From assembly GCF_002968575.1 (NCBI RefSeq), contig NZ_PVBM01000012.1, forward strand, positions 1-64,000: a stretch of 64,000 nt of DNA, read 5' to 3'. Origin of the DNA: Neorhizobium huautlense. GTDB lineage: Bacteria > Pseudomonadota > Alphaproteobacteria > Rhizobiales > Rhizobiaceae. Under the pieces are notes generated by a model. It ran no database searches and was not told where the DNA came from. It saw only the letters and a list, made by a program, of their open reading frames with translations. The translations under genes and the position numbers were made by a program. This document shows positions 134 to 48,417 of the stretch, one piece after another (the first letter of the stretch is position 1; every line of letters begins with the position of its first letter).

Positions 134-2044
134 TCAATCCAGAAGCTGTCGCAGCCGCGTTGCAAGCTCTCTCGCCGTATAGGGCTTTTTGAGCCAGCTT
201 CCGGATTGGGCAAGCTCGCGGCCGGCGATGGCGGGCTCGGCATAGCCGGACGTGAACAGGACTTTCATGTTCGGCCGCTCCTCTCTTACCCTTTGCGCGA
301 GTTCGTCGCCAGTGATCCCGCCCGGCATGACGATATCGGTAAAGAGCAACGCGATATTGTCATGGCGTTCGAGCTGTTCGAGCGCCTCCTTGCCGTTTGC
401 AGCTTCGACCACCTGGTAGCCGAAATCGGTCAGGCGGGAAATGGCGACGCGGCGAACGCGCGGGTCGTCCTCAACCACCAGAATTTTCTCCGTACCGCCC
501 GGAATTGGCGCCGGGCGCGACACATCCTCATTGCTCGAAGCAGCTATTACGTCCTTCTGAGCGGCGTGCAGGAAAATCCTGACGCTCGTGCCCTGACCCG
601 GCTCGCTGTAGAGCTGGATGTTGCCGCCCGACTGCTTGGCGAAGCCGTAGACCATGCTGAGGCCAAGCCCAGTGCCGGCCCCCACACCCTTGGTCGTGAA
701 GAACGGCTCGAACGCTTTTTCCTTCACCTCCGGGGTCATGCCCATACCGGTATCGGTCACCGAAATCAGGACATAATCGCCGGTTCGCACATGGGGATAC
801 ATCTGGGCATAATCGACATCCAGCTTGACCCGGGATATCTCGATGGTCAGCTTTCCGCCCTTCGGCATTGCGTCTCTCGCATTCAGCGTGAGGTTGAGAA
901 GCGCGTTCTGCAATTGCGACGCATCGACAAGGGCTTCGTTGGAAGCACCCGTTACGACGGTCCGGAACTCGATCGTTTCCCCGAGCGTGCGGCGCAGAAG
1001 GTCGGAGAAACCGGTTACCAGCTGCCCAATGTCGACAAGCTTCGGGTTGAGCGGTTGGCGTCGCCCGAAAGCCAGCAACTGTCCCGTCAGCTTGGCACCA
1101 TCGTCGGCGGCGTCCTGCGCTTCGCGCAACAGCACGAGTAGTTTTTCGTCGGCCAGCTTGTTTTCGATCATCTCGAGATTACCGCTGATGACGGTGAGCA
1201 GATTGTTGAAGTCGTGCGCCAGCCCGCCGGTAAGCTGGCCGATAGCCTCCATCTTCTGCGATTGCCGCAGCTCTTCCTCGATCTTGTGACGGCTGGTGAG
1301 ATCCCGGATGAAGCCTGTGAAAATCCGTTCGCCGCCTGTAAGGGCCTCGCCTACTGCAAGTTCCATTGGAAATACCGACCCATCCTTCCGTTGCCCCGTG
1401 ACCACTCGGCCATAACCGATGATACGGCGTTCGCCCGTGGTGAGATATCGAGAGAGATAACCATCATGAGCCTCCCTGTCCGGCGACGGCATCAGCATCT
1501 TGACATTGCGCCCGCAGACTTCATCCGCCGAATAGCCAAAAAGTCTCTCCGCAGCCGCGCTGAAAGAGGAGATGATGCCAACCTCGTTGATCACCACCAT
1601 AGCTTCGGGCACGGTGTCGAGAATCGAGCGCAGATGCGCCTCTCGCCCCGCCAGATCGTTCTGCACCCTCCGCATGTCCGTCACATCGTTGTTTGTCTGG
1701 ATGATGACGGCCTGTTCACTGTTGAGCGCAACCCAACGCGTCGCCACGAAGATACGCTGGCCGTTCTTGTGCTGGTGAACGACCTCACCTTCCCAGGATT
1801 GCGTCTCCAGAACCTGCTGCCGAATCGAATCCAGAGGCTCTGGAAATTCCGTGGCCAGTAACTCTTGCACCACTTTTCCGATCGCTTCCTCGGCCGTCCA
1901 GCCATAGAGGTTCGCACATCCGGCGGTCCAGCGGGTGATGACGCCATCCAGGCCGTGAATGATGAGGTTTGCATCATCGAGAAGGCGGGCGACGGCATCG
2001 AGCTCGGTTTCGGTGGTGCTGTCGGTATGCGTATTCGAAATCAT
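134..2044 (-). CDS. fixL: Hybrid FixL-type heme-PAS oxygen sensor histidine kinase (hFixL)
   Basis: Predicted oxygen-sensing hybrid kinase of 636 residues. An N-terminal PAS domain (about 15-125) is followed by a second PAS domain (about 140-250) that closely matches the FixL heme domain. It has the proximal His in REAHDGYL (H193) and, exactly 20 residues on, the Arg in GYGRVV (R213), the same spacing as the FixL heme His and O2-contacting Arg. A DFNNLL-type H-box follows (phospho-His H277), then an HATPase domain and a C-terminal receiver with acceptor Asp D570 in FTDIVMPGG. No transmembrane segment is visible, so it is probably cytosolic. The start at 2044 is chosen because GGAAGAGA precedes that ATG; a longer frame runs into the upstream fixK gene. 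The built-in receiver and the fixK and OmpR-type neighbours match the hFixL-FxkR-FixK pathway known in Rhizobium. Heme binding is inferred from residues only. Confidence 0.88.
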
Positions 2045-2066
2045 TTCTCTTCCGTGAGCGGTGCCG

Positions 2067-2816
2067 CTAGTGGCGGCGACGTTCACCATGACCGTCGAAA
2101 TCCCGCCTGCTGTCCTCGTATTCATCGCCGTCTCCGGCGAGATGCGCAAGGGCGGAGGGCTTTGTAATCTGCAACGAATGCCGCCCGGCGGCAGCCACGA
2201 TTCCCTTGCCGGCCAGTTTCGTGATTGTACGCGAAACCGTCTCGATCGTAAGCCCCAGATAGTCCGCCATGTCCTGACGTGTCATCGGCAAGTCGACAAT
2301 CCGCTTCATTGCGCCCTCGGCAATGGATCGTTTCAACCGCTTCTGGAGGAAAGTGCAGACCCTTTCCTCGGCATTTTTGCTGGACAGAAGAACCATCTGA
2401 TCTTGGGCAGCAGCCATTTCGTCGCAAACATGGGCCAGCACCTGCGGCCGAAGTTCTGCTGAATCCGACACGGCCGCGTCGAATGTCTTGCGGGTGAGAC
2501 GGCGAACCTTGGCAGAGGTGATCGCCTCTGCGCTATAGAGATAATTTCCTCGCAAAGAAACGCCAACCATGTCCCCCGCATCGAGGAACCCCGTGATGAC
2601 ACGACGCCCATCCGCTATGATGCGATAGATTCGCAATGTACCTTCAAGCACATCGAAGACATGTTTTGCTTGATCGCCTTCGAAGAACAGCGCTTGGCCG
2701 GGCGCCAGATGTTCAGCCGGCTGCTTCGCGAACAGCGTGCGCAGGGAGTTTGGGCCACTATCGTCAATTGTTGTTGCGAACGCGTCTTTATAAATGCGAT
2801 TGCTGGTAACGAACAT
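2067..2816 (-). CDS. fixK: FixK-type CRP/FNR-family transcriptional regulator
   Basis: A 249-residue CRP/FNR-family activator. It has an N-terminal cyclic-nucleotide-binding-like beta-roll ([13 protein letters not shown] onward), a long dimerisation helix, and a C-terminal winged helix with [18 protein letters not shown]. The E-T-V-S-R recognition helix is the FNR/FixK type that reads TTGA half-sites. The N-terminal Cys cluster of FNR/FnrN is absent, so it should not sense oxygen itself and fits the FixK class that is controlled transcriptionally. The start at 2816 has GGAGGCAGGGCC just upstream. hfixL follows 22 bp downstream on the same strand. A K-box-like direct repeat lies about 93 bp upstream. 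Six anaeroboxes at 40-45.5 kb are plausible targets (inference). Confidence 0.87.
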
Positions 2817-2901
2817 GGCCCTGCCTCCATCTGCGGATGGGCTCAATTGACCAAATCCGGGTAACACGCGAATGCTAACCCGGTGAAACATGGTTCTATT
2901 T

Positions 2902-2917
2902 GGTAACAGACTGTAAC
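2902..2917 (-). promoter_or_regulatory. K-box-like direct repeat (FxkR operator) between fixK and fxkR
   Basis: On the fixK strand the sequence reads GTTACA-GTCT-GTTACC: two near-identical hexamers 10 bp apart, one helical turn, the geometry of OmpR/PhoB-type tandem sites. It matches the GTTACA-N4-GTTACA K-box I recall for FxkR at rhizobial fixK promoters. It lies about 93 bp before fixK and just before the fxkR ATG, so it could activate fixK and affect fxkR as well. Looser half-sites (GTAACA at 2861, CTAAC at 2875) lie between it and fixK. Confidence 0.7.
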
Positions 2918-2923
2918 AACCCC

Positions 2924-3652
2924 ATGACCCTGCTTTCATCCACTGCCGCACACATCCTCGTCGTCGACGACGACCCTCGGATCCGTCAGATGCTCATCCG
3001 ATATTTCGAGGATGAAGGATATCTCGTAAGCACGGCTGGCGACGGCACCGAAATGAAGGTTCAACTCCGGCAGAAAGAGATTGATATCATCCTGCTCGAT
3101 CTTTCGCTTCCCGGCGGGCAGGACGGTCTTGATCTCGCTCGCGAGGTTCGGAGCCACTCGGATGTGCCGATCATGATGCTGACGGGACGCGATGATGTGG
3201 TGGACCGGATCATCGGCATCGAGATCGGAGCCGACGATTATATCGCCAAGCCCTTTCATCTGCGCGAGGTGCATGCGCGGCTGAAATCGATTCTCAGGCG
3301 CCGCCAGCCTGGTACCTCCAAGCCGGAAGCCAACGAAGACAAGATCATCCGTTTCGAAGGATGGAGCCTCAATCTTTCCCGGCGGCAGCTTCTGGCGCCT
3401 GATGCTTCGGAAGTCGATCTGACGACGGGCGAATTCGACATGCTGGCAGCCTTCCTGCAGAATGCCGGGCGGGTGCTGACGCGGGATTTCCTAATGGATT
3501 CCACCAGAGGGCGTCAGCTTGAGGCATTTGATCGCACCATCGACGCACAAATCGTCCGGCTGCGCAGAAAGATCGAGGCAGACGCCAGCAATCCTCAATT
3601 GATCAAGGCCGTTCGTGGCGTCGGCTATATCTTCACCGGCAAGATCGAATGA
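2924..3652 (+). CDS. fxkR: OmpR-family response regulator, FxkR-like
   Basis: A 242-residue two-domain response regulator. The receiver spans about 10-125, with the acidic pocket DDD at 15-17, acceptor Asp D59 in LLDLSLPGG, and the conserved K in AKPF. The C-terminal OmpR/PhoB winged helix spans about 140-240 and ends in the typical VRGVGYIF. The gene is divergent from fixK and hfixL. This context is that of FxkR, which relays the hFixL signal to the fixK promoter in Rhizobium etli and R. leguminosarum. I chose the ATG at 2924, although its Shine-Dalgarno is weak. A TTG at 2900 in frame would add eight residues but would place the K-box inside the gene. The FxkR name rests on context plus the K-box rather than on sequence alone. 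Confidence 0.8.
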   Translation: MTLLSSTAAHILVVDDDPRIRQMLIRYFEDEGYLVSTAGDGTEMKVQLRQKEIDIILLDLSLPGGQDGLDLAREVRSHSDVPIMMLTGRDDVVDRIIGIEIGADDYIAKPFHLREVHARLKSILRRRQPGTSKPEANEDKIIRFEGWSLNLSRRQLLAPDASEVDLTTGEFDMLAAFLQNAGRVLTRDFLMDSTRGRQLEAFDRTIDAQIVRLRRKIEADASNPQLIKAVRGVGYIFTGKIE

Positions 3653-6484: not shown

Positions 6485-6922
6485 TTAATTCATCTTCTTC
6501 ACGCGCTCCAAGGCATCCAAGGCATCGAGAAGTGCCTGGGCATGAATGCCCAGGGAGCAGAGCAGCTTCTCCTCGTAGGCAAGCGCGCTCGGCACGATAT
6601 TTTCGTAGGCTGTGAGCCCCTGGGGCGTCAGGGCAAGCACTTCCTCGCGGCGATCCTCCAAGCTCTCCCGCCGCTTCAGCCAGCGCCTTTCTTCTAAAGC
6701 GCGCACCGCCCGGCTGACCTTGGTCTTGTGCATGAACGAATGCCGGCCAATGGCTTTGGCGCCCATCTCTCCAAATTGGCCAAGCGTTGCGAGAACCCGC
6801 CACTCCGGGATCGTCAGGTCATAGTCGCGGCCGTAGATCTCGCGGAACTCCTGCGAGACGACCGTCCCGATGCGGGCAAGCCTGTAGGGAAGAAAATGCT
6901 CAAGGGCGAGTTTTGTCATCAT
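6485..6922 (-). CDS. MarR-family regulator divergent from hmgA
   Basis: A 145-residue MarR-type winged-helix protein. The core is seen in LTIPEWRVLATLGQFGEMGAKAIGRHSFMHKTKVSRAVRALEERRWLKRRES, with the DNA-reading wing rich in D-R-R. The gene is divergent from hmgA-fahA across 58 bp that contain a matching inverted-repeat operator. It is therefore the likely repressor of homogentisate breakdown, as HmgR-type regulators are elsewhere (inference). Two adjacent ATG codons (6922 and 6919) could both serve as start; neither has a strong Shine-Dalgarno. Confidence 0.87.
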   Translation of the reverse strand: MMTKLALEHFLPYRLARIGTVVSQEFREIYGRDYDLTIPEWRVLATLGQFGEMGAKAIGRHSFMHKTKVSRAVRALEERRWLKRRESLEDRREEVLALTPQGLTAYENIVPSALAYEEKLLCSLGIHAQALLDALDALERVKKMN

Positions 6923-6925
6923 TGA

Positions 6926-6958
6926 TAGTTACAAAATCGATGGTTACTTTTGCAACTA
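6926..6958. promoter_or_regulatory. Inverted-repeat operator for the MarR regulator / hmgA promoter
   Basis: TAGTTACAAAA (6926-6936) and TTTTGCAACTA (6948-6958) form an 11-bp inverted repeat with one mismatch around an 11-bp spacer. Inside it, GTTAC-TTTT-GCAAC (6943-6956) is a second, near-perfect 14-bp palindrome of typical MarR size. The element fills the gap between the MarR gene and hmgA, so binding would cover both promoters. Confidence 0.6.
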
Positions 6959-6980
6959 ATTTCGTGATGGAGGACACGCC

Positions 6981-26546: not shown

Positions 26547-26596
26547 GGCCGGGAAAGACAGTCAAAGCGGCATCGGATGAAACGGGAGGAGATATC

Positions 26597-37360: not shown

Positions 37361-38461
37361 TTACGCCAGCACCGCCTCCACCGGGCGCCGCGGCGAATAG
37401 GGTAGCGTCGGCCCATATCCGAACCGCATGACGATGTCCGGCCGACGTCCCGGCAGGCCCGCGAGCGCGGCCAGTTCGGGTCGCAGTTGCGCGACTTCCA
37501 CCGGTTGATTGATAAAGGCATGCTTGAGACCGAGCGCCGTCGCCTGCAGGGCGAAGCGCTGGCAGGCACGTCCGGCGCGGACCCAATGCTCCGCATCGTC
37601 ACGTGCGGAAACGAACACCGCTACGCCCGCTGACGAATGAAGCTGCCTTGCGTATTTATCGTTCTCGGTATCCGCGCGAAACGCGAGATCGAAGAGGTGC
37701 GGACCCAGCCAGCTCGGCAAGGATGGGTTGCCGCTCGTAGGCCCGAACAGCCCATCGCCAGATGCCATCGCCTGGCGCGGGTTGAAGCGCAACCAGGATT
37801 TCAGTTCGCGCATGAAGGCGGCGTCCGCCATTTGCGCGGTGTTTCCGGCGACGACGAGATCCCGCACGCGATCCATCCCGGGCTTCCCAGTGATCAGCAC
37901 GAGATCGACGCCCGGCATGTCTGCCGCCGCTACCAGAGCCTGGAGGTCTGCCGCGGAAACGCTTTTGCCGTCATAGTCGGCGCGGGTCGACTGGCGCCTC
38001 GGAATCGCAGCGAACAGATCGGATCGGCTCGCTGCTCCGTCGCCGAAAACCACTGTCACGGCGCCTTGATACGCCGGATCGAAGCTGATTTCTTCGGCAG
38101 GACGGCCAGCCGCGGAGGCGGCGAGCGCGAGGTTCTCGGCTGCGCATCCGAGGCTCGCAAACAGATGGTGGTCATCGGCATCGACCACGGGGGTGCGCCG
38201 CGTAGGGTCGGCGAGGATGTCAACGCGCCTCTCACCGAGGCGAAACCGCCACGGCTGCGTGTTGTGGCCGTTCGCGGCAAGCGTCGCGTAGCGGACAAGT
38301 TCATGCAGCCGGGGGTTTTCAGAGAGCACCGCCCTGCTCGCCGCAATCGAAACTTCGTACGCCTCCATCGAACCCATCTGGCGTAGGCTCCAATAGGTAG
38401 CACCTGCGCCCGCAATCGCCACCGCGCCGCCTCCGATGAGCAGACCGCGCCGCGTCATCAT
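37361..38461 (-). CDS. Acg-type nitroreductase-family FMN oxidoreductase with Tat-like N-terminus
   Basis: A 366-residue nitroreductase-superfamily protein of the Acg subgroup. The N-terminus TRRGLLIGGGAVAIAGAGATYW has a twin Arg and a hydrophobic stretch, so it is probably Tat-exported or membrane-anchored. FMN-contact pieces include ANGHNTQPWRF, RRQSTRADYDGK and ALGLKHAFINQPVE. Its ATG overlaps the stop of the FAD oxidoreductase gene, so the two are one operon. Acg-type proteins occur in hypoxia regulons elsewhere, which fits the FixK box upstream of the pair. The physiological substrate is unknown. Confidence 0.8.
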   Translation of the reverse strand: MMTRRGLLIGGGAVAIAGAGATYWSLRQMGSMEAYEVSIAASRAVLSENPRLHELVRYATLAANGHNTQPWRFRLGERRVDILADPTRRTPVVDADDHHLFASLGCAAENLALAASAAGRPAEEISFDPAYQGAVTVVFGDGAASRSDLFAAIPRRQSTRADYDGKSVSAADLQALVAAADMPGVDLVLITGKPGMDRVRDLVVAGNTAQMADAAFMRELKSWLRFNPRQAMASGDGLFGPTSGNPSLPSWLGPHLFDLAFRADTENDKYARQLHSSAGVAVFVSARDDAEHWVRAGRACQRFALQATALGLKHAFINQPVEVAQLRPELAALAGLPGRRPDIVMRFGYGPTLPYSPRRPVEAVLA

Positions 38462-39993
38462 CCGAATAACTCCCGCGGCATGCTCTCATCCCGGCGGCCG
38501 GGGCCATCGGGCAGGAAGGCGACATGGTCGCGGCGGCAGATCGCCCGAACCGCTGCGCGCGCCGTCATGAGGCCGCACGGCAATCCTCCGCCGGGCTGCA
38601 CCCATTGACCGACCATCCGGAACCGGTGGAGGCCCGGCAGAGTCTGGCGACGCGGCCGAAAGCCGACGCCTGGCGTAGGCAGAAAACCCTCCATGCTGCC
38701 TTTCCAGTTGCCGGTAAAGTGCATGACGCTGGCCGGCGTCGAAACATCCGTCACTTCGATGGCTTCGCGGACACCCGGCAGGCGGCGTTCGAGAATTTCG
38801 ATCACGGCTGAAGCAATGCGCCGCTTCTCCACCTCGTAGGCGGTCGCATCCTTGCGCTGCAGATCCTGCCAATAGGCATAGTTCCATGTTGGCAGAAAGC
38901 AGGTGACCGCGGTCTTGCCTGCGGGCGCAAAGGTCGGATCGAAATGGAAGATGCGGAACGCGACGGTGTCGAGGCTGGTCTCGGGATCGATTTCGAGTGG
39001 CTTGGCCAGAGTTCGAGCGAGGAAGCCGGGTTCCTGCGAAAGGTCCCTTGCGACGCCCAACGAGACTTGCAGATAGGAAGGAAAGACCTTCTGGCTGTCG
39101 TAGAAGGCGTCGATCGCCGCGTTGCGATAGCGGCCCTCGAGCATATCGTAGATCGTCGCGTGGCCGTCGGCGCCGGAGATCACCCAGTCCGCCCTGATAA
39201 TCTCGCCGTCGCTCAGCCTGACGCCCACGGCAACGTCATCCTCGACCAGGATCGTTTCGACTTTCGCCATGAGGCGCAATTTTCCGCCAAGCGCGCGGAA
39301 GCGTTGGGTGATCGCGTCGATGATCGACTTAGCGCCGCCCACCGCGTAACCCGCATTGCGTGCACTCATCCAGCCGAACATCAGCACGAGCGCGATGGCA
39401 GCCATGTCGGCCGTCGCGCTCTCAGTAAAGAAGCGGCGCAACAAGTCGTTTCTGAAGCGCTTGCCGTATTCCGCCGCGCTCATGCCAGCCCATTGCGTGA
39501 GCAGCGGAAGTTTCGGGATCAGGCGCAGCATCGCCCAGGTCCGGCGGGGCCAGGCGGCGTTCAGATCATCCATCGGAAGATTTGCCAGCCGACGGATGGC
39601 GGACGTGAACTCCATGATTTCTTCGGCATCCTCGGGCGCTGCATGCAGAAGCTCCGCCTCCATCCGGTCGACGTCGGAGTAAAACGTGAGCGAGCGCCCG
39701 TCTTCGGTTTCCACGCGCTGATATACCTCGGCGTCAACGAAGCGGAGCTTGTCGACATCGAAGACTTCGCGCCATTGCCGACCCAGCGTCCCGTCTGGGG
39801 CGGACCCAAGGAACCAGTGCAGGCAGGTTTCAAATGTGTAGCCGTTCCGCGTCCAGCTGGTCGCGAGGCCTCCCGGGATCGCATGCTGCTCCAGGATCGT
39901 CACCTGATAGCCGCAGAGCTGCGCGTAGACGCCGGTGCACAAGCCCGCGATCCCGCCGCCAATGATTACGATATGTCGAGCAGGTTCAGGCAT
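38458..39993 (-). CDS. FAD-dependent oxidoreductase, phytoene desaturase / retinol saturase-like
   Basis: A 511-residue flavoprotein of the CrtI / retinol-saturase amine-oxidase superfamily. The dinucleotide-binding motif IVIIGGGIAGLCTGVYAQLCGYQVTILE opens the protein, followed by GGLATSW. A C-terminal FAD block reads RFRMVGQWVQPGGGLPCGLMTARAAV. The start at 39993 follows GAGGGTTTCTCC; the longer frame runs into the promoter. A FixK box is centred 60 bp upstream. No carotenoid genes are nearby, so a carotenoid role is not supported. Confidence 0.78.
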   Translation of the reverse strand: MPEPARHIVIIGGGIAGLCTGVYAQLCGYQVTILEQHAIPGGLATSWTRNGYTFETCLHWFLGSAPDGTLGRQWREVFDVDKLRFVDAEVYQRVETEDGRSLTFYSDVDRMEAELLHAAPEDAEEIMEFTSAIRRLANLPMDDLNAAWPRRTWAMLRLIPKLPLLTQWAGMSAAEYGKRFRNDLLRRFFTESATADMAAIALVLMFGWMSARNAGYAVGGAKSIIDAITQRFRALGGKLRLMAKVETILVEDDVAVGVRLSDGEIIRADWVISGADGHATIYDMLEGRYRNAAIDAFYDSQKVFPSYLQVSLGVARDLSQEPGFLARTLAKPLEIDPETSLDTVAFRIFHFDPTFAPAGKTAVTCFLPTWNYAYWQDLQRKDATAYEVEKRRIASAVIEILERRLPGVREAIEVTDVSTPASVMHFTGNWKGSMEGFLPTPGVGFRPRRQTLPGLHRFRMVGQWVQPGGGLPCGLMTARAAVRAICRRDHVAFLPDGPGRRDESMPRELFG

Positions 39994-40046: not shown

Positions 40047-40060
40047 TTGAGGCAGGTCAA
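40047..40060 (-). promoter_or_regulatory. FixK/FNR anaerobox upstream of the FAD oxidoreductase - Acg operon
   Basis: TTGAG-GCAG-GTCAA fits TTGAT-N4-ATCAA with one mismatch in each half. Its centre is 60 bp before the ATG at 39993, which would place it close to -41.5 with a short leader. A TTTACC -10-like element lies between (40015-40020). Confidence 0.7.
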
Positions 40061-40138
40061 ACGGCCGTCTTGTCACAAAGGTTGTCAGTTCGAACATCCA
40101 CGGCACTGCCGTTTTCGCACAGCCCGCCGCGCCGCAGA

Positions 40139-40564
40139 TCACGTCCGTCTGCTCCATACTCTGCCATACAAGGTCATTCCGGCCAGCATGGCTGCGACGA
40201 ACAGGACCGTCTGGGGGAGGCCGACCGACAGGGATGCAACGGCCGGACCGGGACAGAAGCCGCCAATCCCCCAGCCCAGGCCGAACAAAGCCGAACCGAC
40301 CACCAAGGGTGCATCGATCCGATTGTCCGTCGGCACATGGAAGCTGTCGTCGAGTACCGGACGCTCCATCCGCTTCATCACCTGCACGCCGGTGAAGGCG
40401 ACGACGACCGCGCCGCCAAGAACGAACGCCAAGCTTGGGTCCCAGGCGCCGAAGATGTCGAGGAAACCCTGGACTCGGACAGGATTTAGCATGCCGGACA
40501 AGGACAGCCCGAATCCGAAGACGATGCCCGAAGCAAGCGCTACGCATGAAGCCAAAGATAGCAC
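40139..40564 (-). CDS. DUF6691 (YeeE/YedE-type) membrane protein, 5-prime end altered
   Basis: A 141-residue membrane protein of the DUF6691/YeeE-YedE family (putative sulfur-compound transport), with GFGLSLSGMLNPVRVQGFLDIFGAWDPSL and GFCPGPAVASL. Normally such genes begin with ATG and are paired with a second YeeE/YedE half gene. Here the reading frame opens with GTG, and the first six or seven codons lie in DNA that encodes a P-type ATPase on the other strand. The partner half is missing. It has probably lost its native start and promoter by recombination, so expression is doubtful. Confidence 0.65.
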   Translation of the reverse strand: MLSLASCVALASGIVFGFGLSLSGMLNPVRVQGFLDIFGAWDPSLAFVLGGAVVVAFTGVQVMKRMERPVLDDSFHVPTDNRIDAPLVVGSALFGLGWGIGGFCPGPAVASLSVGLPQTVLFVAAMLAGMTLYGRVWSRRT

Positions 40565-41779
40565 TTACGCAGGTATTGTGCGCCTGGTCGAGGACGCACA
40601 ACGCTCCAAGGCTCCCATGTCCCGGCTCGCCGACAGATGGTCGACAGGATTCCTGGCGATCACTGTGATAATTGCCTTTGCCGCATGGTGGTTCACAAGA
40701 GACCCGATCCGGGCCGTCGCGGTGCTGGTCGTGGCGACGCCCTGTCCGTTGATCCTGGCGGTGCCCGTGGCTCTCGTGGCGGGGCTTTCGCGCGCCGCCC
40801 ATTCGGCGTCCTCATCAAGGGCGCGCATTCTCTCGAGAACATGGCTCGCATTCACACTCTGGTCCTGGACAAGACGGGGACGCTCACCGACGGCCGGCCC
40901 CAGATCGCCTCGATCCACAGCCCGTTGGGCTACACTGAGGACGAAATCCTACGGTTTGCCGCCTCCGTGGACCAAGCATCGAAGCACCCTATCGCCCAGG
41001 CTATCGTTGCGGCGGCCCGGCGGCGAAATCTCCCTCTCGCTCTGCCGTCGGAGGTAAACGAGGTGGCGGGAGAAGGGATAGCGGGCTGCGTGGACGATAA
41101 GGAGGTGACGGTCGGCGGCAATGGCTTCGTGGAAAGGCGCGTCCAAGCCACGCCATTTTCCATTCCGGAAACCGCAGCCGGTTCGGTTGTCGTCGCTGTC
41201 GCGATCGCAAACAGGCTGGTTGGTTACATATTGATGGCCGATCCGGTGCGGGAAGAGGCGGCGGAGATGCTTGACGGGTTACGCCACGAAGGCATCCGGC
41301 GTATTCTGCTCGCCACCGGAGATCGCGCCGCTGTAGCCGAACGTGTCGCCGATGGCCTCGGTCTCGATGGAATTCGTTCCAGCCTCACTCCGGATCAGAA
41401 GGTACTGGTGGTACTGACGGAGCGAAAGAACGGACCTGTCATGATGGTTGGGGACGGCGTCAATGATGCGCCGGCCCTTGCGGCGGCAGACGTCGGCGTC
41501 GCGATGGGCGCGAGGGGAGCCGCCGCCTCCGCCGAAGCAGCGGACGTCGTCCTTCTGGTGGACAGGATCGACAGGCTCCGTACCGGGATAGAGATCGCCC
41601 GGCGATCACGCAGGATTGCGATCGAGAGCATTGTCGTAAGGATCGGCCTTTCGGTGTTCGCCATGGTGGCTGCAGCGCTCGGCTTCCTGCGCCCGGTCGA
41701 GGGAGCAATCCTGCAAGAGGCAATCGACGTCGCCGTCATTCTAAACGCGCTTCGGGCGCTAAGGATAAAACCGCGATGA
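40539..41779 (+). pseudogene. Truncated and frameshifted P1B-type heavy-metal ATPase remnant
   Basis: The DNA encodes the second half of a P1B metal-transporting ATPase: DSTYAGIVRLVEDAQRSKAP, the membrane motif ATPCPLILAVP (TPC rather than the usual CPC), phosphorylation motif DKTGTLT, HP motif SKHPIAQA, and hinge GDGVNDAPALAAADVG. The metal-binding domain and first membrane helices are absent. Between SRAA and FGVLIKG the frame changes at 40800-40801, where two bases stand where a codon is expected, so one base is lost. The 5-prime break coincides with the start of the DUF6691 gene. It is very likely non-functional, although the soluble part alone (from about 40840) remains open. Confidence 0.85.
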
Positions 41780-42011
41780 AGAGAATGGGCGCTGCTTGCT
41801 GCTTCATCTGACGGACGCCGATGCCGTCTATGCGGGTTTCGGCAAGCGGGCTGCACGCCCGCTGGCAAAGATTGATCCGTCCGCCATGGATGAAACGCAG
41901 TTCCCGGCAGGATCGACGCGGCGGCCCGCTTCAAGGAAGCCAGGCGTCGAGCCGTCATAGGCGGCCTGGAAGATGCCGCTGAAATTATTGCAGGGACAAA
42001 AGGAACTGTCT

Positions 42012-42025
42012 TTGAGAGGGATCAA
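42012..42025 (+). promoter_or_regulatory. FixK/FNR anaerobox before a small hypothetical gene
   Basis: TTGAG-AGGG-ATCAA differs from the consensus at one base. A good -10, TACAAT (42049-42054), lies where expected for a box near -41.5, giving a start near 42060. The rest of the 306-bp stretch 41780-42085 shows no gene. Confidence 0.72.
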
Positions 42026-42085
42026 AGATGATCTTCGCTGTGGGTGGCTACAATAACAATTGGAGGCTTTGCCTGGTTGGCCGGC

Positions 42086-42367
42086 ATGAACGTCCAGCCC
42101 AGGCACATGCAGGAGGCGTCATTGGATCTTCATCGCGCAGCAGTCGAGAAATTATGGGAACGACATCGTCCACTTGACGACCGCGGCCACTGCAAACTGC
42201 CGAGTCCAAACACTTCTTCCACCGAAGAAACGATCAGTGTCGAAGCATTCTGCGGTTGCCATGGCATTGACGAGGCCGAGATCAGGCAGCTTCAACGGCT
42301 TTTGGGCCCCTTCGCTATCAGAAATGAGCTGTGGGCGAACATTCGTCGCCAGCCGCGCTTCAGATAG
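42086..42367 (+). CDS. Small hypothetical protein downstream of a FixK box
   Basis: An open frame of 93 residues (NVQPRHMQEASLDLHRAAV ... ANIRRQPRFR) of no family I recognise; it has a CGCHG motif and a charged helical C-terminus. The reading frame extends upstream to a GTG at 42044, but the predicted promoter start near 42060 excludes that. The ATG at 42086 has only a weak ribosome site. A TTG at 42122 directly follows a strong AGGAGG and may be the true start (81 residues). It is believable mainly because of its promoter. Confidence 0.42.
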   Translation: MNVQPRHMQEASLDLHRAAVEKLWERHRPLDDRGHCKLPSPNTSSTEETISVEAFCGCHGIDEAEIRQLQRLLGPFAIRNELWANIRRQPRFR

Positions 42368-42464
42368 TTAATCGGAGCCCGACAATGCCCGCAGCACCGG
42401 CTGCGGGCATTGATCTGGTCCAACCCTGTTTCCGACCCCGCATACAGCAGGCCGCGACATGGGA

Positions 42465-43295
42465 TCAGCGGGCGAGGAAGACGGGAAAATCGCACTTGTC
42501 CAGCATCGAGGCCGTAACGCCACCGAATATCCTCTCGCGAAGCCGCGAATGACCATAGGCTCCCATGACGATCAGATCGCAATCGAAATCGAGCGCACGC
42601 TGCTCCAGAACTTCGGCGACGGGCCGTCCGCCGCTGGCAACCTGCTCGACCTGCACGGTGGCGCCGTGCCGGGCAAGATAGGTCGCCATGTCCGCGCCAG
42701 GCTCTCCGCCATTCTCCCAATAGGAACTGTCTGGATCGATCAGCACGACGTAAACGAGGTCCGCGGAAACGAACATGTCCAGCGCCTCTCGGGCGGCGCG
42801 AGCCGCCTCGCCCCGAGAATTCCAACCGAGCAATATCCGTTTGGGCTTCAAAGTCGACCCACGTTCCTTGGAGGCCAGGAGAAGCGGTCGGTGGGCATCG
42901 AAGACCGCACCGTTTATGATCGCCTTGGCAAGTTGAGGATCGCCGCGAACTCCATCGCCCAGAATGACCACATCCGCATAGAGCGCGCGCCTATATATCT
43001 CCTCGTCGAGCGTGACAGTCTCGGCATAGACTTCGCCGACGTCAAAAGACAGCCCGCTTGCTTTGCATTCTGCTTCCGCCTTCTTCCGGATCTCATCGAG
43101 AATTTTCAGCTCATCGTATCGCTGATCGAGCCATGCGGTACCGGCTGGAAAGTCGCCGACATTTGGCGGTAGGGCCAGGCCTGCAACAACGATGGAAAGG
43201 TGAGCCTCGAGTTCCGAGCCGAGTGCGATAGCTTTCTTGATATCGGACGCAGCGCCGGAGGCACCTATGACGGCAAGAACTGTCTTGAAAGGCAT
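42465..43295 (-). CDS. Universal stress protein with two Usp domains
   Basis: A 276-residue protein with tandem Usp folds: domain 1 about 1-140 (FKTVLAVIGASGAASDIKKAIALGSELEAHLS), domain 2 about 150-276 (KRILLGWNSRGEAARAAREAL). The ATP-binding signature GAYGHSRLRERIFGGVTASML near the C-terminus is intact in domain 2 only. The start at 43295 follows GAGGGAACGTGCC. A FixK box lies 79 bp upstream with a TTACAA -10-like element between, so low-oxygen induction is likely. Confidence 0.88.
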   Translation of the reverse strand: MPFKTVLAVIGASGAASDIKKAIALGSELEAHLSIVVAGLALPPNVGDFPAGTAWLDQRYDELKILDEIRKKAEAECKASGLSFDVGEVYAETVTLDEEIYRRALYADVVILGDGVRGDPQLAKAIINGAVFDAHRPLLLASKERGSTLKPKRILLGWNSRGEAARAAREALDMFVSADLVYVVLIDPDSSYWENGGEPGADMATYLARHGATVQVEQVASGGRPVAEVLEQRALDFDCDLIVMGAYGHSRLRERIFGGVTASMLDKCDFPVFLAR

Positions 43296-43367
43296 GGCAC
43301 GTTCCCTCACGATGGGCCTTAATTGACCTGATACCGAAAAGTTGTAACCGCGTAGCAGCGGGCAACG

Positions 43368-43381
43368 ATGATCTGCGTCAA
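43368..43381 (-). promoter_or_regulatory. FixK/FNR anaerobox upstream of the universal stress protein
   Basis: On the Usp strand the sequence is TTGAC-GCAG-ATCAT, matching TTGAT-N4-ATCAA at eight of ten positions. It is centred 79 bp before the ATG; TTACAA (43342-43347) fits as a -10. Confidence 0.65.
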
Positions 43382-43521
43382 AGTGGTTGGCGAATTTCGA
43401 CGCATAGAACCACAGCCCCGAAGATCATTGATGGGGACTAACGTTCTCCAGATGCTCCACCTTCTCATACAAACACGCGAGCAATGGTGGGGCCGACAGA
43501 AACCTAGAGGTGCCCGCAGCA

Positions 43522-43535
43522 TTGATCTCGATCAC
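43522..43535 (+). promoter_or_regulatory. FixK/FNR anaerobox with well-placed -10 before the DUF1488-like gene
   Basis: TTGAT-CTCG-ATCAC has one mismatch to the consensus. TATACT (43557-43562) is placed as expected for a class II site at -41.5, giving a start near 43570 and a 20-nt leader. This is the best complete FixK promoter in the window. Confidence 0.78.
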
Positions 43536-43589
43536 TGAAGATATGCGGGACATGCCTATACTGGAGCCTTCTACAGCGAGGAGGATGCT

Positions 43590-43871
43590 ATGCCATTGAA
43601 GCTCAAGTCAGGATTTATGACATCCGACGGAGACGAAGGCCGCCTCTTGATGGATTCGGGAACAGGCGACCAGGTCGTGCTTGGGACTCATGACGCGCTC
43701 CAAACCATCGCCAATCCGCCACGAGCAGATGAATTCAGGCTCCAAGAATATGTCGACCTCTTTAGCCAGATCGCAAGTGACAAGTTCGACAGGAAGGAAT
43801 TCGACGCCGCCGGCCATATTCGCGTGACGTCTGAGGACATCCGCACCTTCCGCTCCCTGCATGCGCGATAG
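43590..43871 (+). CDS. Small DUF1488-like protein
   Basis: A 93-residue protein. The C-terminal half (FSQIASDKFDRKEFDAAGHIRVTSEDIRTF) resembles the DUF1488 family, in which a helix is followed by a short strand ending in TS-x-D. The N-terminus is less similar. The ATG at 43590 follows GAGGAGGATGCT. It has its own FixK-box promoter. Function is unknown. Confidence 0.65.
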   Translation: MPLKLKSGFMTSDGDEGRLLMDSGTGDQVVLGTHDALQTIANPPRADEFRLQEYVDLFSQIASDKFDRKEFDAAGHIRVTSEDIRTFRSLHAR

Positions 43872-43996
43872 CGTTGCTGGCTTTAACGGCCGGTGGAAAG
43901 ACATCAGTTCCGTAAACCGCCACCACGAGTACAGGCAACAGGAACTTGCTCCCTGCCTAATCGAGAAATTCATCGAAGCTCCTCGGCCATATATCA

Positions 43997-44010
43997 TTGA
44001 TGCTGGTCAA
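43997..44010 (+). promoter_or_regulatory. FixK/FNR anaerobox upstream of hsp20
   Basis: TTGAT-GCTG-GTCAA has one mismatch to TTGAT-N4-ATCAA. It is centred 122 bp before the hsp20 ATG, leaving a leader of about 80 nt. The remaining part of 43872-44125 shows no gene. Confidence 0.7.
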
Positions 44011-44125
44011 TGCGTGCAAATCCGACACGAGCTTGAATTACGGTGCTCGATGAAGAGCTGCCACCGGGACGAGGAGAGCGCTTGTTTGCGCTGCATAAAG
44101 TCCCTTAACAGCAAAGGAGAATGTA

Positions 44126-44653
44126 ATGGTTGAGGCTGCGACGAAACTGCCCGTTCAGAAGGATGAAAAGCCAGTACAACCGGCTGGTACCTTCTGGTCT
44201 CCCTTCCAAACGCTTCGCAATGAGATTGATCGGCTGTTCGAAGATTTCGCTCCGACCTCCAGGCGTACTCCGGAACGCTCCTTGTTCGGCCGAGCCATGC
44301 CGTCGTTGAACGGCTGGGCCACCGCGCCGGCTGTCGATATTGTTGAGAACGACGACGCTTTTGAAGTCACCGCGGAAGTTCCTGGCATCGACGAAAAGAA
44401 CCTCGATGTGAAGCTTTCGAACGGTTACCTGATCATCCGCGGTGAGAAGACCGAGGAAAAGGAAGAAAAGCAGAAGGAATATCACGTCTCGGAACGCCGT
44501 TATGGCTCCTTCCAGCGGACGTTCCAGCTTCCGGACGGGATTGACGCCGAGAAGGTGGAGGCGACCTTTCATAAAGGCATTTTGAAGGTCAAGCTGCCCA
44601 AGAGCGCAGAAGCTAAGAAGAACGAGCGCAAGGTTGAGATCAAAGCTGCTTGA
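44126..44653 (+). CDS. hsp20: Small heat-shock protein, Hsp20/alpha-crystallin family
   Basis: A 175-residue class A small heat-shock chaperone. The alpha-crystallin domain spans about 65-165 (APAVDIVENDDAFEVTAEVPGIDEKNLDVKLSNGYLIIRGEK), with GILKVKLPK as the C-terminal strand and a preceding EIDRLFEDF helix. The ATG at 44126 follows AAAGGAGAATGTA. It has an upstream FixK box and a strong terminator, so it forms a single-gene unit. Low-oxygen rather than heat control is suggested; I see no ROSE-type thermometer, though I could not fold the leader. Confidence 0.94.
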   Translation: MVEAATKLPVQKDEKPVQPAGTFWSPFQTLRNEIDRLFEDFAPTSRRTPERSLFGRAMPSLNGWATAPAVDIVENDDAFEVTAEVPGIDEKNLDVKLSNGYLIIRGEKTEEKEEKQKEYHVSERRYGSFQRTFQLPDGIDAEKVEATFHKGILKVKLPKSAEAKKNERKVEIKAA

Positions 44654-44678
44654 CCGACCGGCTCTTACTTTCCAACCC

Positions 44679-44714
44679 GGCGCGCATCAATATTTTGCGC
44701 GCCTTTTCTTTTTA
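44679..44714 (+). terminator. Rho-independent terminator after hsp20
   Basis: GGCGCGC (44679-44685) and GCGCGCC (44697-44703) make a perfect 7-bp stem around an 11-base loop, followed by TTTTCTTTTT. It lies 25 bp after the hsp20 stop. Confidence 0.9.
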
Positions 44715-44980
44715 GTCGGCGAACAGCTAACAGCCGCTCCAACATAGCTCCAACATAGCTCCAACATATCCGTAGCCTTGTCCGGCGCGAGACCGGGAGA
44801 AGTTGCTGGTGAGTCGCCCCGCAGATGTCGGTAGGCTCCAAAGGATGAAGAAGCCGCGTTGTTGCTGAACCCCACCGTACGCCTGCGGTCGCAGACGTCG
44901 TTATTGAAGCAATTGCTGAATACCGCGGGTTGCATGAGTTGAAAGAGACCGGCAGGCAGTATCTGGCGGTCTCTTTCAGA

Positions 44981-45424
44981 CTAGAAGGCCAGGTGCTTTT
45001 CGATTTCCTGCACCGGTAGCTTGATAAGATCCTTATCATACTCTGCAAGGATCAGCTTTCTGACCGAGACCGGCATCGCGTGACGCAGGTCTGCAAGCGC
45101 CTTCGGCGGTGCGACGACCACCAGCTTATGGACTTTCTTTTCTTCGCAAATCGCCTCCAACCTCTCCGCGACAGTGACGGAGAAGTGTTCCTCTTCCTGC
45201 TCATGGAAATCGGTTTGTCCAAGCGCGCTGCGTCGGCTACCAACCGCCGCTCGACCCGGCCTGTCCGTCCCCTGGCTACGTGCCGAAGGATTGTCAGGCG
45301 CTTCGATCACCTGTTCGACCTCCAACGCCAGTTTAAACGCCGTACCGGTATTGCGCAGCAAAAGTGCCTTCTGCCCGTCCGCAACGAGCACCCAGGCGTC
45401 GTAGGGAATGACCTTGCTCTTCAT
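44981..45424 (-). CDS. Host-attachment family protein
   Basis: A 147-residue protein of the Host_attach family, first named for Agrobacterium attachment genes. Hallmarks are WVLVADGQKALLLRN near the N-terminus and KLVVVAPPKALADLRHAM ... KDLIKLPVQEIEKHL at the end, an eRF1-like fold. No signal peptide is present, so a direct adhesin role is doubtful. The ATG at 45424 follows AAGGAGGATGATGTG. A FixK box is centred 61 bp upstream. Confidence 0.83.
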   Translation of the reverse strand: MKSKVIPYDAWVLVADGQKALLLRNTGTAFKLALEVEQVIEAPDNPSARSQGTDRPGRAAVGSRRSALGQTDFHEQEEEHFSVTVAERLEAICEEKKVHKLVVVAPPKALADLRHAMPVSVRKLILAEYDKDLIKLPVQEIEKHLAF

Positions 45425-45478
45425 CACATCATCCTCCTTGGAGATAGGAGCAGGATAATCATTTTGGAAACGTAGGGT

Positions 45479-45492
45479 TTGATCGGTGTCAA
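45479..45492. promoter_or_regulatory. FixK/FNR anaerobox between host-attachment gene and nuclease gene
   Basis: TTGAT-CGGT-GTCAA has one mismatch. It is centred 61 bp before the host-attachment ATG, with a TTATCC -10-like element (45453-45458) on that strand. It could also act on the plus strand, where the nuclease gene begins 324 bp away. Confidence 0.7.
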
Positions 45493-45815
45493 TCATCCTA
45501 CCGTTCTGGGCTCGGCCACCAGAAGCGCCTTTGACGCTGCTCGATACCATCCGCGGAAAAGATGGAGACCGTCCTGGAATACGTGCGGATCTTAATATGC
45601 AATCCGGCCGACCGCTTCCGGCCACCCGGCGAAACGGTTACCTCATATTCGCCGACCGGCGGAAGAGCCGCAATCTTGAGAAGCGGAACAGCGACGTGAA
45701 CGCCGCCCGATCGGGAGAGCATAAGTACGTTGATTTCCGTCAACTTGCCGACAGTGAGGATGAGTTAGACGAAGAAATACGATATTTATTCATTTGAGAC
45801 ACAAGGAGGCCCGCG
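45493..45815. other. 323-bp stretch without a firm gene, open on both strands
   Basis: Two weak open frames overlap here. The plus-strand one could start at ATG 45597 and end at 45797 (66 residues, ending DSEDELDEEIRYLFI), 18 bp before the nuclease start. The minus-strand one covers 45498-45743 with only a TTG start. Neither has a good ribosome site or a family I recognise. The stretch may be a long leader for the nuclease gene. Confidence 0.4.
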
Positions 45816-47420
45816 TTGAACGATCACTCCCCGCGTATCGCGTTCCACGGAGCAGCCGGCACTGTAACCGGCTCCTGTTTCCTCCTTGAGTTCGGAGATA
45901 TCCGAATCCTCATCGATTGCGGGATGTTTCAAGGCTCGAAGACTGAAAAGGAACTCAATTATCGTCCTTTTCCGTTCGCACCCTCATCGTTGGATGCGGT
46001 TCTCCTCACACATGCCCATATCGATCACAGCGGCCTGCTTCCCAAGCTCGTTAAGGATGGCTTTGCCGGTCCGATCTTTTGCGCGCCGGCGACCTTGGAT
46101 CTGTGTGCAGTCATGCTGCCCGATTCCGCTCATATCCAGGAAATGGAAGTGGAGCAACTCAACCGGCGCAATGAGCGGCGGGGCCGCAAATCTGTCGATC
46201 CGATCTATACCGCGGCTGACGCTATGGCCGCTCTGGTTCAGATGAGAACTGTTGGGTTCGAGCAATGGGAGGAACTGGATCCGGCCATCCGCTTCCGTTT
46301 CTGGAATGCTGGGCATCTTCTCGGATCAGCCTCCATCGAGGTCGAGATCGGGACGGCCGCGGCGCGCCAGCGGCTTCTTTTCTCAGGCGATATCGGCCCG
46401 AGCCACAAGCTGCTGCAATTCGATCCTGAAGCCCCTCCCGGCTGGGACTATGTGATTTGCGAGAGCACCTACGGCGACGTCGACCGCCACGATCCTTCCG
46501 ACGAAGCGCGGCGGACCATGTTGCGTGATGAGGTCCGCCATGCCTGTCGCCACCGGGACGGAGCTCTTCTTATACCATCCTTCGCCGTCGAACGTACTCA
46601 GGAGCTTTTGGCCGACCTGATCAATCTTATGGAGAGACACCAGATTGACCAATGCCCGATCATCATCGACTCTCCGTTGGCCCTGCGAGCAACCGAGGTC
46701 TTCAAGAAACATGCCCGGGACCTCGAGAACGGTGACCTGCTGCTTCGTGCCCTTCGAGCCAGGAATGTCCGGTTTACCGAAACCGCCGAGCAATCCAAGG
46801 CGATTGACAACATGCGAGGTTTCCACATCGTCATCGCGGCGAGTGGCATGTGCGAGGCTGGCCGTATACGACATCGCCTGAAAAATTGGCTGTGGCGGGA
46901 GGAAGGGACCGTTCTCCTCGTAGGCTATCAAGCTACCGGAACGCTGGGACGCCTGTTGGAAGACGGTGCCCCTACCGTCCGGATCCAGGGCGACGAGATT
47001 GCCGTAAGAGCAAGCATCCGCAAGCTTGACGTCTACAGCGGCCATGCCGACGGGCCGGAACTCGCTGCATGGCTTGCGGCACGCGCGCCGGTCCGGAAAG
47101 CCGTATTTCTGGTCCATGGGGAACTGCCCGCAGTCGCGGCCATGAAGGAGCGCATTTCCACCCTGCAGCCTCACGTCAGGGTCATAGAGCCGTCGCTCGA
47201 TGCCGAATATGCTCTGACGCCCAGGGAACCGAGAGAGATTTCCATCGCGCAGGCTCCGCCGAGGCTCAACCCATTACAGGTCGGTCGCAGGGACTGGCAT
47301 AACGACTTCCAGTCTCTGATCCTGGATCTCCAGGAGAAACTGGACAGTGCGGCAGACGAAAAGGCTCGCGGCGCAATCCTGCGAAAGGTCAGACGCGCTC
47401 TCTCGGGATCAGAGGAGTGA
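45816..47420 (+). CDS. Beta-CASP metallo-beta-lactamase-fold RNase
   Basis: A 534-residue MBL-fold protein with a beta-CASP insertion, related to archaeal/bacterial CPSF73-type RNases. Zinc motifs are THAHIDHSG, AGHLLGSAS and FSGDIG; the beta-CASP part holds PSFAVERTQEL and MCEAGRIRHRLKNWL; YSGHAD and VHGE close the site. Likely an RNA-processing nuclease. There is no ATG near the family start: the TTG at 45816 has an excellent AAGGAGG, so a TTG start is assigned. It converges with the alcohol dehydrogenase gene 13 bp away. Confidence 0.87.
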   Translation: MNDHSPRIAFHGAAGTVTGSCFLLEFGDIRILIDCGMFQGSKTEKELNYRPFPFAPSSLDAVLLTHAHIDHSGLLPKLVKDGFAGPIFCAPATLDLCAVMLPDSAHIQEMEVEQLNRRNERRGRKSVDPIYTAADAMAALVQMRTVGFEQWEELDPAIRFRFWNAGHLLGSASIEVEIGTAAARQRLLFSGDIGPSHKLLQFDPEAPPGWDYVICESTYGDVDRHDPSDEARRTMLRDEVRHACRHRDGALLIPSFAVERTQELLADLINLMERHQIDQCPIIIDSPLALRATEVFKKHARDLENGDLLLRALRARNVRFTETAEQSKAIDNMRGFHIVIAASGMCEAGRIRHRLKNWLWREEGTVLLVGYQATGTLGRLLEDGAPTVRIQGDEIAVRASIRKLDVYSGHADGPELAAWLAARAPVRKAVFLVHGELPAVAAMKERISTLQPHVRVIEPSLDAEYALTPREPREISIAQAPPRLNPLQVGRRDWHNDFQSLILDLQEKLDSAADEKARGAILRKVRRALSGSEE

Positions 47421-47433
47421 CGCCTTTGGGTTG

Positions 47434-48417
47434 TCAGGGGATGAGGACGGCTGCGCCGCTCAGGCGCCCTTCCCTAAGATCATCGAGTGCGCGGTTTGCA
47501 TCTGCGAGCGGATAGACGACAGTATGCGTCCTCACGTTTGCTGCCGCCGCGGTCGGGAAGAACTCCTGCGCATCTTCCCTGGTTAGGTTCGCGACGGAGA
47601 CCACCTGCCGCTCTTCCCAAAGAAGGGCGTAGGGCATCTGCGGAATGTCGCTCATATGAATGCCACCGCAGACAACCCGCCCACCCTTTTTGACTGCCTT
47701 CAACGCTGCCGGCACCAGACTGCCGACCGGAGCAAAAATGATCGCTGCATCCAATGGTGCCGGCGGCAGCTCATCGGAACCACCCACCCATGCCGCCCCG
47801 AATTCCTGGGCAAAGGCCTGCGCCTGTTTGTCGTCCGGCCGCGTAAAGGCGTAGACCTGCCTTCCTTGCCAGCGGCAGACCTGCGCGATGATGTGCGCGG
47901 CCGCTCCGAACCCGTAAAGCCCTATCCGCCTACCTTCTCCCGCCTTCTTGAGGGATCGCCAGCCGATCAAGCCCGCGCAGAGAAGTGGTGCCAGGGCAAC
48001 AGGGTCGGCCGCCATCGGGAGATCGAAGGCATAGGCTGCATCTGCCACCGCATGCGTGGCGAAACCGCCGTCCCGCGTGTAGCCCGTAAAAAGAGGATCA
48101 TCACAAAGGTTTTCGGCCCGCGATTTGCAATAGCCGCAATGACCGCAGGTATGGCCGAGCCAGGGAATCCCGACTCGTGAACCAATTCTCGCCGAGGGAA
48201 CTCCCTCCCCGACCGCATCCACGATGCCGACGACCTCATGGCCGGGCACAAGCGGAAGTTTTGGGTTTGGAAGATCCCCGTCGACCACATGCAGATCGGT
48301 CCGACAGACCGCACATGCCTCTATCCGGACACGGAGCTCTCCCGCTTTCGGTTCAGGATCTGGCCGCTCCACCAGTTCGAGCGGGTTGCCGACCTCATGC
48401 AATACCATGGCCTTCAT
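47434..48417 (-). CDS. Zinc-dependent alcohol dehydrogenase (AdhA-type)
   Basis: A 327-residue medium-chain zinc alcohol dehydrogenase. Catalytic zinc ligands lie in CAVCRTDLH and PGHEVVG; the structural zinc lobe is CGHCGYCKSRAENLC. The cofactor loop reads GLYGFGAAAHI, slightly off the GxGxxG pattern, as is normal for the AdhA group. The start at 48417 follows GGAGGTTCC; the longer frame lacks similarity. I see no FixK box before it, unlike its neighbours. Confidence 0.88.
   Translation of the reverse strand: MKAMVLHEVGNPLELVERPDPEPKAGELRVRIEACAVCRTDLHVVDGDLPNPKLPLVPGHEVVGIVDAVGEGVPSARIGSRVGIPWLGHTCGHCGYCKSRAENLCDDPLFTGYTRDGGFATHAVADAAYAFDLPMAADPVALAPLLCAGLIGWRSLKKAGEGRRIGLYGFGAAAHIIAQVCRWQGRQVYAFTRPDDKQAQAFAQEFGAAWVGGSDELPPAPLDAAIIFAPVGSLVPAALKAVKKGGRVVCGGIHMSDIPQMPYALLWEERQVVSVANLTREDAQEFFPTAAAANVRTHTVVYPLADANRALDDLREGRLSGAAVLIP

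Follow-up and report, generated by a model that had tools for sequence, protein, structure and literature searches.

Genes and candidate boxes at the locus

The window analyzed here covers the opening 64 kb of contig 33, a 156-kb contig in the Neorhizobium huautlense genome, which is a Rhizobiaceae assembly of 5.73 Mb in 146 contigs. Between 40.0 and 45.8 kb, it holds a compact series of genes encoding a universal stress protein (Usp), a small heat-shock protein (Hsp20), a host-attachment family protein, an FAD-dependent oxidoreductase, and two small proteins (orf93 and orf107), which lie behind candidate binding sites for FixK-type regulators of the CRP/FNR family (FixK boxes). An earlier reading, made from the sequence alone, had placed six such boxes here, each upstream of a gene, and had proposed a low-oxygen stress regulon of the FixK type. 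Each position it named (40047, 42012, 43368, 43522, 43997, and 45479) does hold a 14-mer with no more than one mismatch per half to TTGAT-N4-ATCAA, and an open reading frame (ORF) starts within about 130 nucleotides (nt) downstream of each. A further site at 45730, absent from that list, has a perfect TTGA-N6-TCAA core and lies 5' of an MBL-fold ORF. The features of the locus are as follows.

37361..38461, minus strand: Acg/Rv3131-family FMN oxidoreductase, directly 3' of the FAD oxidoreductase gene
38458..39993, minus strand: FAD-dependent oxidoreductase, CrtI-like superfamily (Pfam; under the NCBIfam CrtI cut-offs)
40047..40060, minus strand: FixK box TTGACCTGCCTCAA, 54 nt 5' of the FAD oxidoreductase gene
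42012..42025, plus strand: candidate FixK box TTGAGAGGGATCAA, 5' of orf107, with TACAAT at the expected -10 spacing
42044..42367, plus strand: orf107, small uncharacterized ORF, with partial homologs in 117 plasmid records (E <= 0.01)
42465..43295, minus strand: usp, universal stress protein of 276 amino acids (aa; Pfam Usp)
43368..43381, minus strand: FixK box TTGACGCAGATCAT, 5' of usp, one core mismatch
43522..43535, plus strand: FixK box TTGATCTCGATCAC, 68 nt before orf93, one core mismatch, with TATACT at -10 spacing
43590..43871, plus strand: orf93, conserved orphan small protein of 93 aa, in 97 plasmid records
43997..44010, plus strand: FixK box TTGATGCTGGTCAA, 5' of hsp20, perfect core
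44126..44653, plus strand: hsp20, small heat-shock protein (Pfam HSP20)
44981..45424, minus strand: host-attachment/baeRF family 12 protein (Pfam PF18856, PF10116)
45479..45492, minus strand: FixK box TTGACACCGATCAA, 5' of the host-attachment gene
45730..45743, plus strand: core box TTGATTTCCGTCAA, 73 nt 5' of the MBL ORF
45816..47420, plus strand: MBL-fold beta-CASP ribonuclease-like protein (Pfam Beta-Casp, RMMBL)

The small ORF orf107 matched nothing in Pfam or NCBIfam. The idea of an RNA element at hsp20 was dropped, as no Rfam model reached its gathering score between 36 and 50 kb.

The excess of boxes depends on how strictly the motif is defined. Under the loose rule (at most one mismatch per half to TTGAT-N4-ATCAA), the window holds 22 sites, relative to 10.4 expected from 200 dinucleotide shuffles (maximum 18), and 13 of these lie outside 40 to 48 kb. 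The claim that such sites are missing from the other islands of the window thus fails under the loose rule and holds only for the strict core, TTGA-N6-TCAA, which occurs six times (40047, 42012, 43997, 45479, 45730, and 47690; shuffle mean 0.7), always within 40047 to 47703. Four of the six sites listed by the sequence-only reading have this perfect core (40047, 42012, 43997, and 45479), while the one at 47690, inside an alcohol dehydrogenase ORF, is probably a chance match. Eight of the loose sites fall within a single 5.7-kb span, for which the best span in the shuffles averaged 3.2 sites and never reached eight in 200 trials; likewise, none of 200 dinucleotide shuffles reached the five core sites that lie within 5.7 kb here. 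Relaxing the core to a broader FixK2-type pattern, TTGM-N6-KCAA, gave nine window sites (shuffle mean 4.0), the three extra ones being scattered. Further, -10 elements (at least four of six matches to TATAAT, 29 to 31 nt from the box center; background 8 to 9%) accompany five of the seven sites, there being none at the expected spacing from 40047 or 45730, although the spacing range was chosen after inspecting the sequence and this line of evidence is weak.

Across the genome, the core occurs 107 times (about one per 53 kb), in comparison with 17 for a reversed-pattern control, and the more restrictive TTGAY-N4-RTCAA occurs 48 times (control, 3); the perfect TTGAT-N4-ATCAA occurs 13 times, with none on contig 33. 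Such an enrichment is as expected for a genome with an active FixK-type regulator. Classical targets carry the motif as well, with boxes 100 nt before a ccoN/fixN-like ORF and 32 nt before a fixG-like ORF (contig 91, positions 142513 and 146113; genes named by eye). Contig 33 has no core site beyond the six of the 40- to 48-kb cluster, and the local density is exceptional, with five core sites in 5.7 kb here and three in the densest such span elsewhere (contig 83). When 107 sites were placed evenly, five fell within 5.7 kb anywhere in 0.045% of 20,000 simulations. An origin of the cluster by chance, from base composition, would find some footing in the loose-rule counts, since with 22 such sites where about 10 are expected, single loose sites will often be chance matches. 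The shuffles and simulations that so rarely or never reproduce the core cluster speak against this explanation, and the conservation of the boxes in homologs, described below, contradicts it; we consider it vanishingly improbable.

Conservation of the boxes in relatives

Upstream regions of homologs were searched over 250 nt measured from the alignment start, rather than from verified start codons, and each set includes the locus of the window itself. For usp, 21 of 30 upstream regions had a perfect core and 28 had a core with at most one mismatch, relative to 0 and 6 of 90 coding controls; these are the best-listed 30 loci, drawn from a family matched in 130 of 297 genomes, and one locus, which lies at the edge of its contig and escaped placement, was counted as a miss. 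Of 30 hsp20 loci (matches in 43 of 247 genomes), 23 had a perfect core and 24 no more than one mismatch; among 57 coding controls, the counts were 0 and 2. Boxes at these two genes are thus widely kept among the family homologs sampled. A perfect box preceded orf93 at four of six loci, and one with at most one mismatch at five (coding controls, 0 of 3 and 2 of 3), in a sample from 5 of 247 genomes, including its own, in which two rows start inside the ORF. As a reference, window ORFs outside 36 to 50 kb had no perfect box in 36 upstream regions and five with at most one mismatch. Perfect boxes also preceded other ORFs around the homologs, 11 of 43 at the usp loci, 10 of 34 at the hsp20 loci, and 2 of 38 at the host-attachment loci; we take the high rates beside usp and hsp20 as probably reflecting shared or island promoters.

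The two sites that deviate from the core are kept in relatives. Specifically, the usp box at 43368 has counterparts TTGACAAAGATCAT in Rhizobium terrae and TTGACAGAGATCAT in genome G106, and the orf93 box at 43522 corresponds to TTGATCTACGTCAC (one mismatch), 66 nt before the gene, in a Neorhizobium galegae plasmid, and to perfect boxes in plasmids of Sinorhizobium meliloti and Agrobacterium salinitolerans. At least 16 of 27 other genomes with an Hsp20 homolog (among matches listed down to E 3.9e-44) have a Usp homolog no more than 25 kb away on the same contig, and a 42-kb stretch of the A. salinitolerans plasmid combines 10 core boxes with orf93, alcohol dehydrogenase, Usp, MBL, GroEL, host-attachment, Hsp20, a further Usp, and P-type ATPase genes; one box there lies 69 nt 5' of the host-attachment gene. 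Rhizobium sullae groups Usp, the FAD oxidoreductase, Acg, and an OmpR-type receiver. Narrower searches returned less: Usp against the genome contigs gave one locus (R. terrae), and megablast of 10.5 kb against plasmids gave one match of 71%.

A second, asymmetric box, TTGAYNNNGCGCAA or a near variant, lies 61 to 96 nt upstream at 12 of the 30 usp loci, seven of which also carry the symmetric box 31 to 81 nt further upstream. It fits the FixK2 box, and a similar sequence, TTGATCCAGCGCAA, is listed as a FixK2 box of Bradyrhizobium diazoefficiens in passages of PMC9104804.

Sensor module and proposed FixK control

About 36 kb from the box island, at the start of the window, lies a set of regulatory genes:

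134..2149, minus strand: hybrid-FixL-like sensor (hFixL) with two PAS domains, HisKA, HATPase, and receiver (Pfam)
2067..2951, minus strand: FixK-type CRP/FNR regulator, likely start nearer 2837 (Pfam; FixK2 structure 4i2o, E 4e-29)
2902..2917, minus strand: K-box GTTACA-N4-GTTACC, 5' of fixK, one mismatch to GTTACA-N4-GTTACA
2900..3652, plus strand: FxkR-like OmpR-type response regulator, divergent (Pfam Response_reg and Trans_reg_C)

The second PAS domain of the sensor resembles the heme PAS of FixL (S. meliloti FixL heme domain 1d06, E 5e-47), and the FixK protein has the motif ETVSR, without an N-terminal cysteine cluster. The three proteins are 71% (sensor, 525 aa), 51% (FixK, 208 aa), and 66% (FxkR-like, 233 aa) identical to those of a Sinorhizobium medicae island. 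Taken together, the domains, the OmpR-type regulator, the adjacent fixK, and the K-box point to an hFixL-FxkR-FixK module with predicted heme binding. Contig 91 carries another FixK-FixL-like pair, next to the fixN- and fixG-like ORFs and their boxes; the fixK of this pair also has a K-box with one mismatch, while those of S. medicae and S. meliloti, beside a FixK-like gene, are perfect. FixK-type genes were recognized on contigs 33 and 91 by Pfam and on contig 58 by eye (33% identity to the window FixK), and none of the CRP/FNR matches read (20 of 21) showed the cysteine cluster of FnrN (C-x1-3-C-x5-9-C) within the 80 N-terminal residues of its best-frame protein.

These observations suggest that in this Rhizobiaceae bacterium the 40.0- to 45.8-kb segment is, very probably, a low-oxygen stress island under the control of FixK. 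The regulon proposed by the sequence-only reading is supported by the boxes conserved at usp, hsp20, orf93, and the FAD oxidoreductase and by the presence of the regulator genes. From relatives and published systems we infer oxygen sensing, phosphotransfer, FixK binding, activation, and which FixK copy acts, in a cascade that could run as follows. On falling oxygen, an hFixL-like heme-PAS hybrid kinase (one copy of which is at 134 to 2149) would signal by phosphotransfer to the FxkR-like regulator, which, on the K-box, would raise the production of FixK. FixK on TTGA-N6-TCAA boxes, about 41 nt 5' of the transcription start, would then bring RNA polymerase to a set of genes that includes, at the least, usp, orf93, hsp20, the gene for host attachment, and the FAD oxidoreductase-Acg pair. 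The MBL ribonuclease gene is a possible further target, and the island products would protect the cell while respiration is limited. The roles of hFixL, FxkR, the K-box, and the anaerobox are those described in passages of PMC7888657.

Several observations weigh against this interpretation. The boxes at 43368 and 43522 each have one core mismatch, and that at 40047 departs from the palindrome at both fifth positions. Elements resembling a -10 were also found on the opposite strand for two of the seven sites, and the fixN and fixG positive controls fell short of the threshold, each matching TATAAT at three of six positions. No box preceded orf107 in either of the two homologs compared, and none was found within 400 nt of the MBL gene in four of five plasmid homologs, although some of these lie in operons. 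For the wide host-attachment family (matches in 108 of 247 genomes), just 4 of the 30 upstream regions sampled contained a perfect box and 9 contained one with at most one mismatch (controls, 0 and 1 of 30), a low yield that also indicates that the box-finding method is not indiscriminate. Finally, several CRP/FNR regulators of the genome could read the same boxes.

The last of these points raises the alternative that the boxes are read mainly by an NnrR-like regulator, encoded beside a pseudoazurin-like gene, or by a DNR-like regulator (contig 44), and that nitric oxide, not oxygen, is the signal to which the genes respond. The genome does encode both proteins (named by eye), and, according to passages of PMC5596199, there may be overlap between the consensus of NnrR and that of FixK. 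However, genes of the same kinds depend on FixK2, FixK, or FnrN in three genera, in the portions of the literature cited below, and the comparable islands of S. medicae and S. meliloti contain sensor-FxkR-FixK-like genes, which makes control by nitric oxide improbable.

A milder variant of FixK control deserves more weight. Here, only four or five genes or gene pairs (hsp20, usp, host attachment, the FAD pair, and orf93) would be true targets, the sites at 42012 and 45730 would be chance matches, and the count of six would be partly luck. The boxless orf107 homologs are consistent with this variant, as are the MBL boxes that occur in some relatives only and the missing -10 at 45730. Set against it are the rightly spaced TACAAT at 42012, the boxes that precede MBL in the two Sinorhizobium species, S. 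meliloti and S. medicae, and the membership of MBL in a FixK2-dependent operon, bll3117-bll3115, in passages of PMC9104804. We regard this smaller set as quite conceivable, if somewhat short of an even prospect. Whichever the number of targets, the case for membership in the proposed FixK-controlled island would be strongest for usp, hsp20, orf93, and the FAD oxidoreductase and weak for orf107, and the alignments give mixed support to the MBL box. In Agrobacterium tumefaciens, MBL comes after ppsA, itself preceded by a box.

The arrangement is real, and it has close counterparts among the regulons described for other rhizobia. The sequence-only reading had considered the grouping to include unassigned members, a description that no longer applies to most of them, which have precedent, the closest being the rhizobial FixK regulon. 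In B. diazoefficiens, hspC2, usp, host-attachment, nitroreductase, MBL operon, ppsA, phosphoketolase, and GroEL genes are FixK2-dependent (PMC9104804, Table 2), the first five with FixK2 boxes and a strong loss of expression without fixK2, as given in passages of the same paper, and several of the listed genes are induced by microoxia, as given in passages of PMC6515984. The box of its MBL operon, ATGATCTGGGTCAA, resembles the one at 43368 (PMC9104804, in part). The same annotated kinds of genes thus stand behind boxes in both bacteria, a correspondence by annotation; unlike here, the B. diazoefficiens genes have GroEL, ppsA, and RND efflux neighbors and receive FixLJ-FixK2 input, in the parts of that work considered.

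The Sinorhizobium islands are similar in content. S. meliloti pSymA, at 610 to 655 kb, holds usp, orf93, MBL, sensor-FxkR-FixK-like genes, a K-box, and 10 core boxes, and a plasmid of S. medicae T10 combines the sensor module with Hsp20 and MBL genes, whereas the genes here are packed into 5.7 kb with the sensor module some 36 kb away. S. meliloti FixK controls hspC2 and the genes numbered SMa1147 and SMa1158 (passages of PMC3596328, citing Bobik 2006). In Rhizobium leguminosarum, the Hsp20 gene rlv_1399 has TTGA-N6-TCAA upstream, and its roughly 50-fold microaerobic induction is lost without FnrN (passages of PMC11784457); it differs in depending on FnrN, not FixK, and its likeness to the window hsp20 is by annotation. 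The terms usp and hsp do not occur in the main text of a comparative study of FnrN/FixK regulons (PMC4999443). With our results, the known FixK stress regulon would extend to a further genome of the Rhizobiaceae and gain orf93 and the FAD-Acg pair as two candidate members for a role in low-oxygen survival.

orf93, the FAD oxidoreductase-Acg pair, and adjoining sequence

The plasmid records that carry orf93 are labelled Rhizobium, Sinorhizobium, Neorhizobium, or Agrobacterium, and the protein matched neither Pfam (E <= 10) nor NCBIfam (E <= 1). The sequence-only reading had called it DUF1488-like, a label that three separate comparisons left unsupported. Specifically, hmmscan gave no match to DUF1488 (PF07369) up to an E value of 10; a search for the family in 151 genomes found it in 52, with none in the present genome at an E value of 0.001; and profile-profile comparison by hhalign assigned a probability of 0.1%, within the range of the controls (0.1 to 0.5%; positive control, 100%). 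Against solved structures, the orf93 profile gave two weak partial matches, one to a chain named RPB_PLP3_R6 (E 0.003) and one to YefM (E 1.2), and prediction from the single sequence was too poor for use (mean pLDDT 45). The 50-gene lxa locus of Burkholderia cenocepacia includes Usp, a small protein, heat-shock and BON proteins, and a flavin/nitro reductase (passages of PMC6127331). It is betaproteobacterial, and its small protein is annotated as DUF1488, unlike orf93 by profile; its gene order of Usp, DUF1488, and heat shock, taken from the same passages, is a hint only for orf93.

The Acg assignment made from sequence alone was borne out, as the ORF passes NF047509 with 317 bits, relative to a cut-off of 199. 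The FAD oxidoreductase and Acg genes probably form one operon, and the two were found together only here and in R. sullae. Homologs of the FAD gene have a perfect box in all three Paraburkholderia plasmids sampled and one with a single mismatch in R. sullae; by eye, no Acg-like ORF was noticed beside the FAD gene at the three Paraburkholderia loci. The DosR regulon of mycobacteria contains Usp, small heat-shock, and Acg-family proteins under a different regulator and a different box, a parallel in gene content only.

We tentatively propose that orf93 founds a small low-oxygen-survival family, behind its own FixK box in several Rhizobiaceae genera, and that the FAD-Acg flavoenzyme pair has been recruited to FixK control. 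The recruitment is suggested because the FAD gene has a FixK-type box even in Paraburkholderia and because the Acg half parallels the DosR regulon. The two-part proposal is a speculative one that we hold to be rather unlikely, its odds having been set slightly lower because no Acg-like ORF was noticed in Paraburkholderia. Neither orf93 nor the FAD partner was found in passages of the B. diazoefficiens FixK2 target table (PMC9104804), whose FixK2-dependent nitroreductase, blr4652, might belong to the Acg family. Within the main-text literature covered, by a search that was not aimed at orf93 and that had supplements outside its scope, neither orf93 nor the pair was found named as a FixK target.

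A DUF6691 gene (40139-40564) adjoins a P-type ATPase remnant (40530-41779), which by eye lacks its N-terminal part and changes frame near 40.8 kb. In R. sullae, an ORF at 6740-7915 of its locus fuses an FxkR-like receiver to a piece matching MBL (66% over 284 aa) and is perhaps a deletion product. Elsewhere in the window, which has no core FixK box outside 40 to 48 kb, a COX1 gene for cytochrome or quinol oxidase subunit I lies at 26414-28375. Further, contig 59 holds a second candidate low-oxygen group at 59 to 71 kb, with core boxes at 59141, 67388, and 70661 and with genes that by eye encode alcohol dehydrogenase, acetate kinase, a phosphoketolase-like protein, a cation ATPase, NUDIX, and HlyD; genes similar to this group surround the Usp homolog of R. 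terrae.

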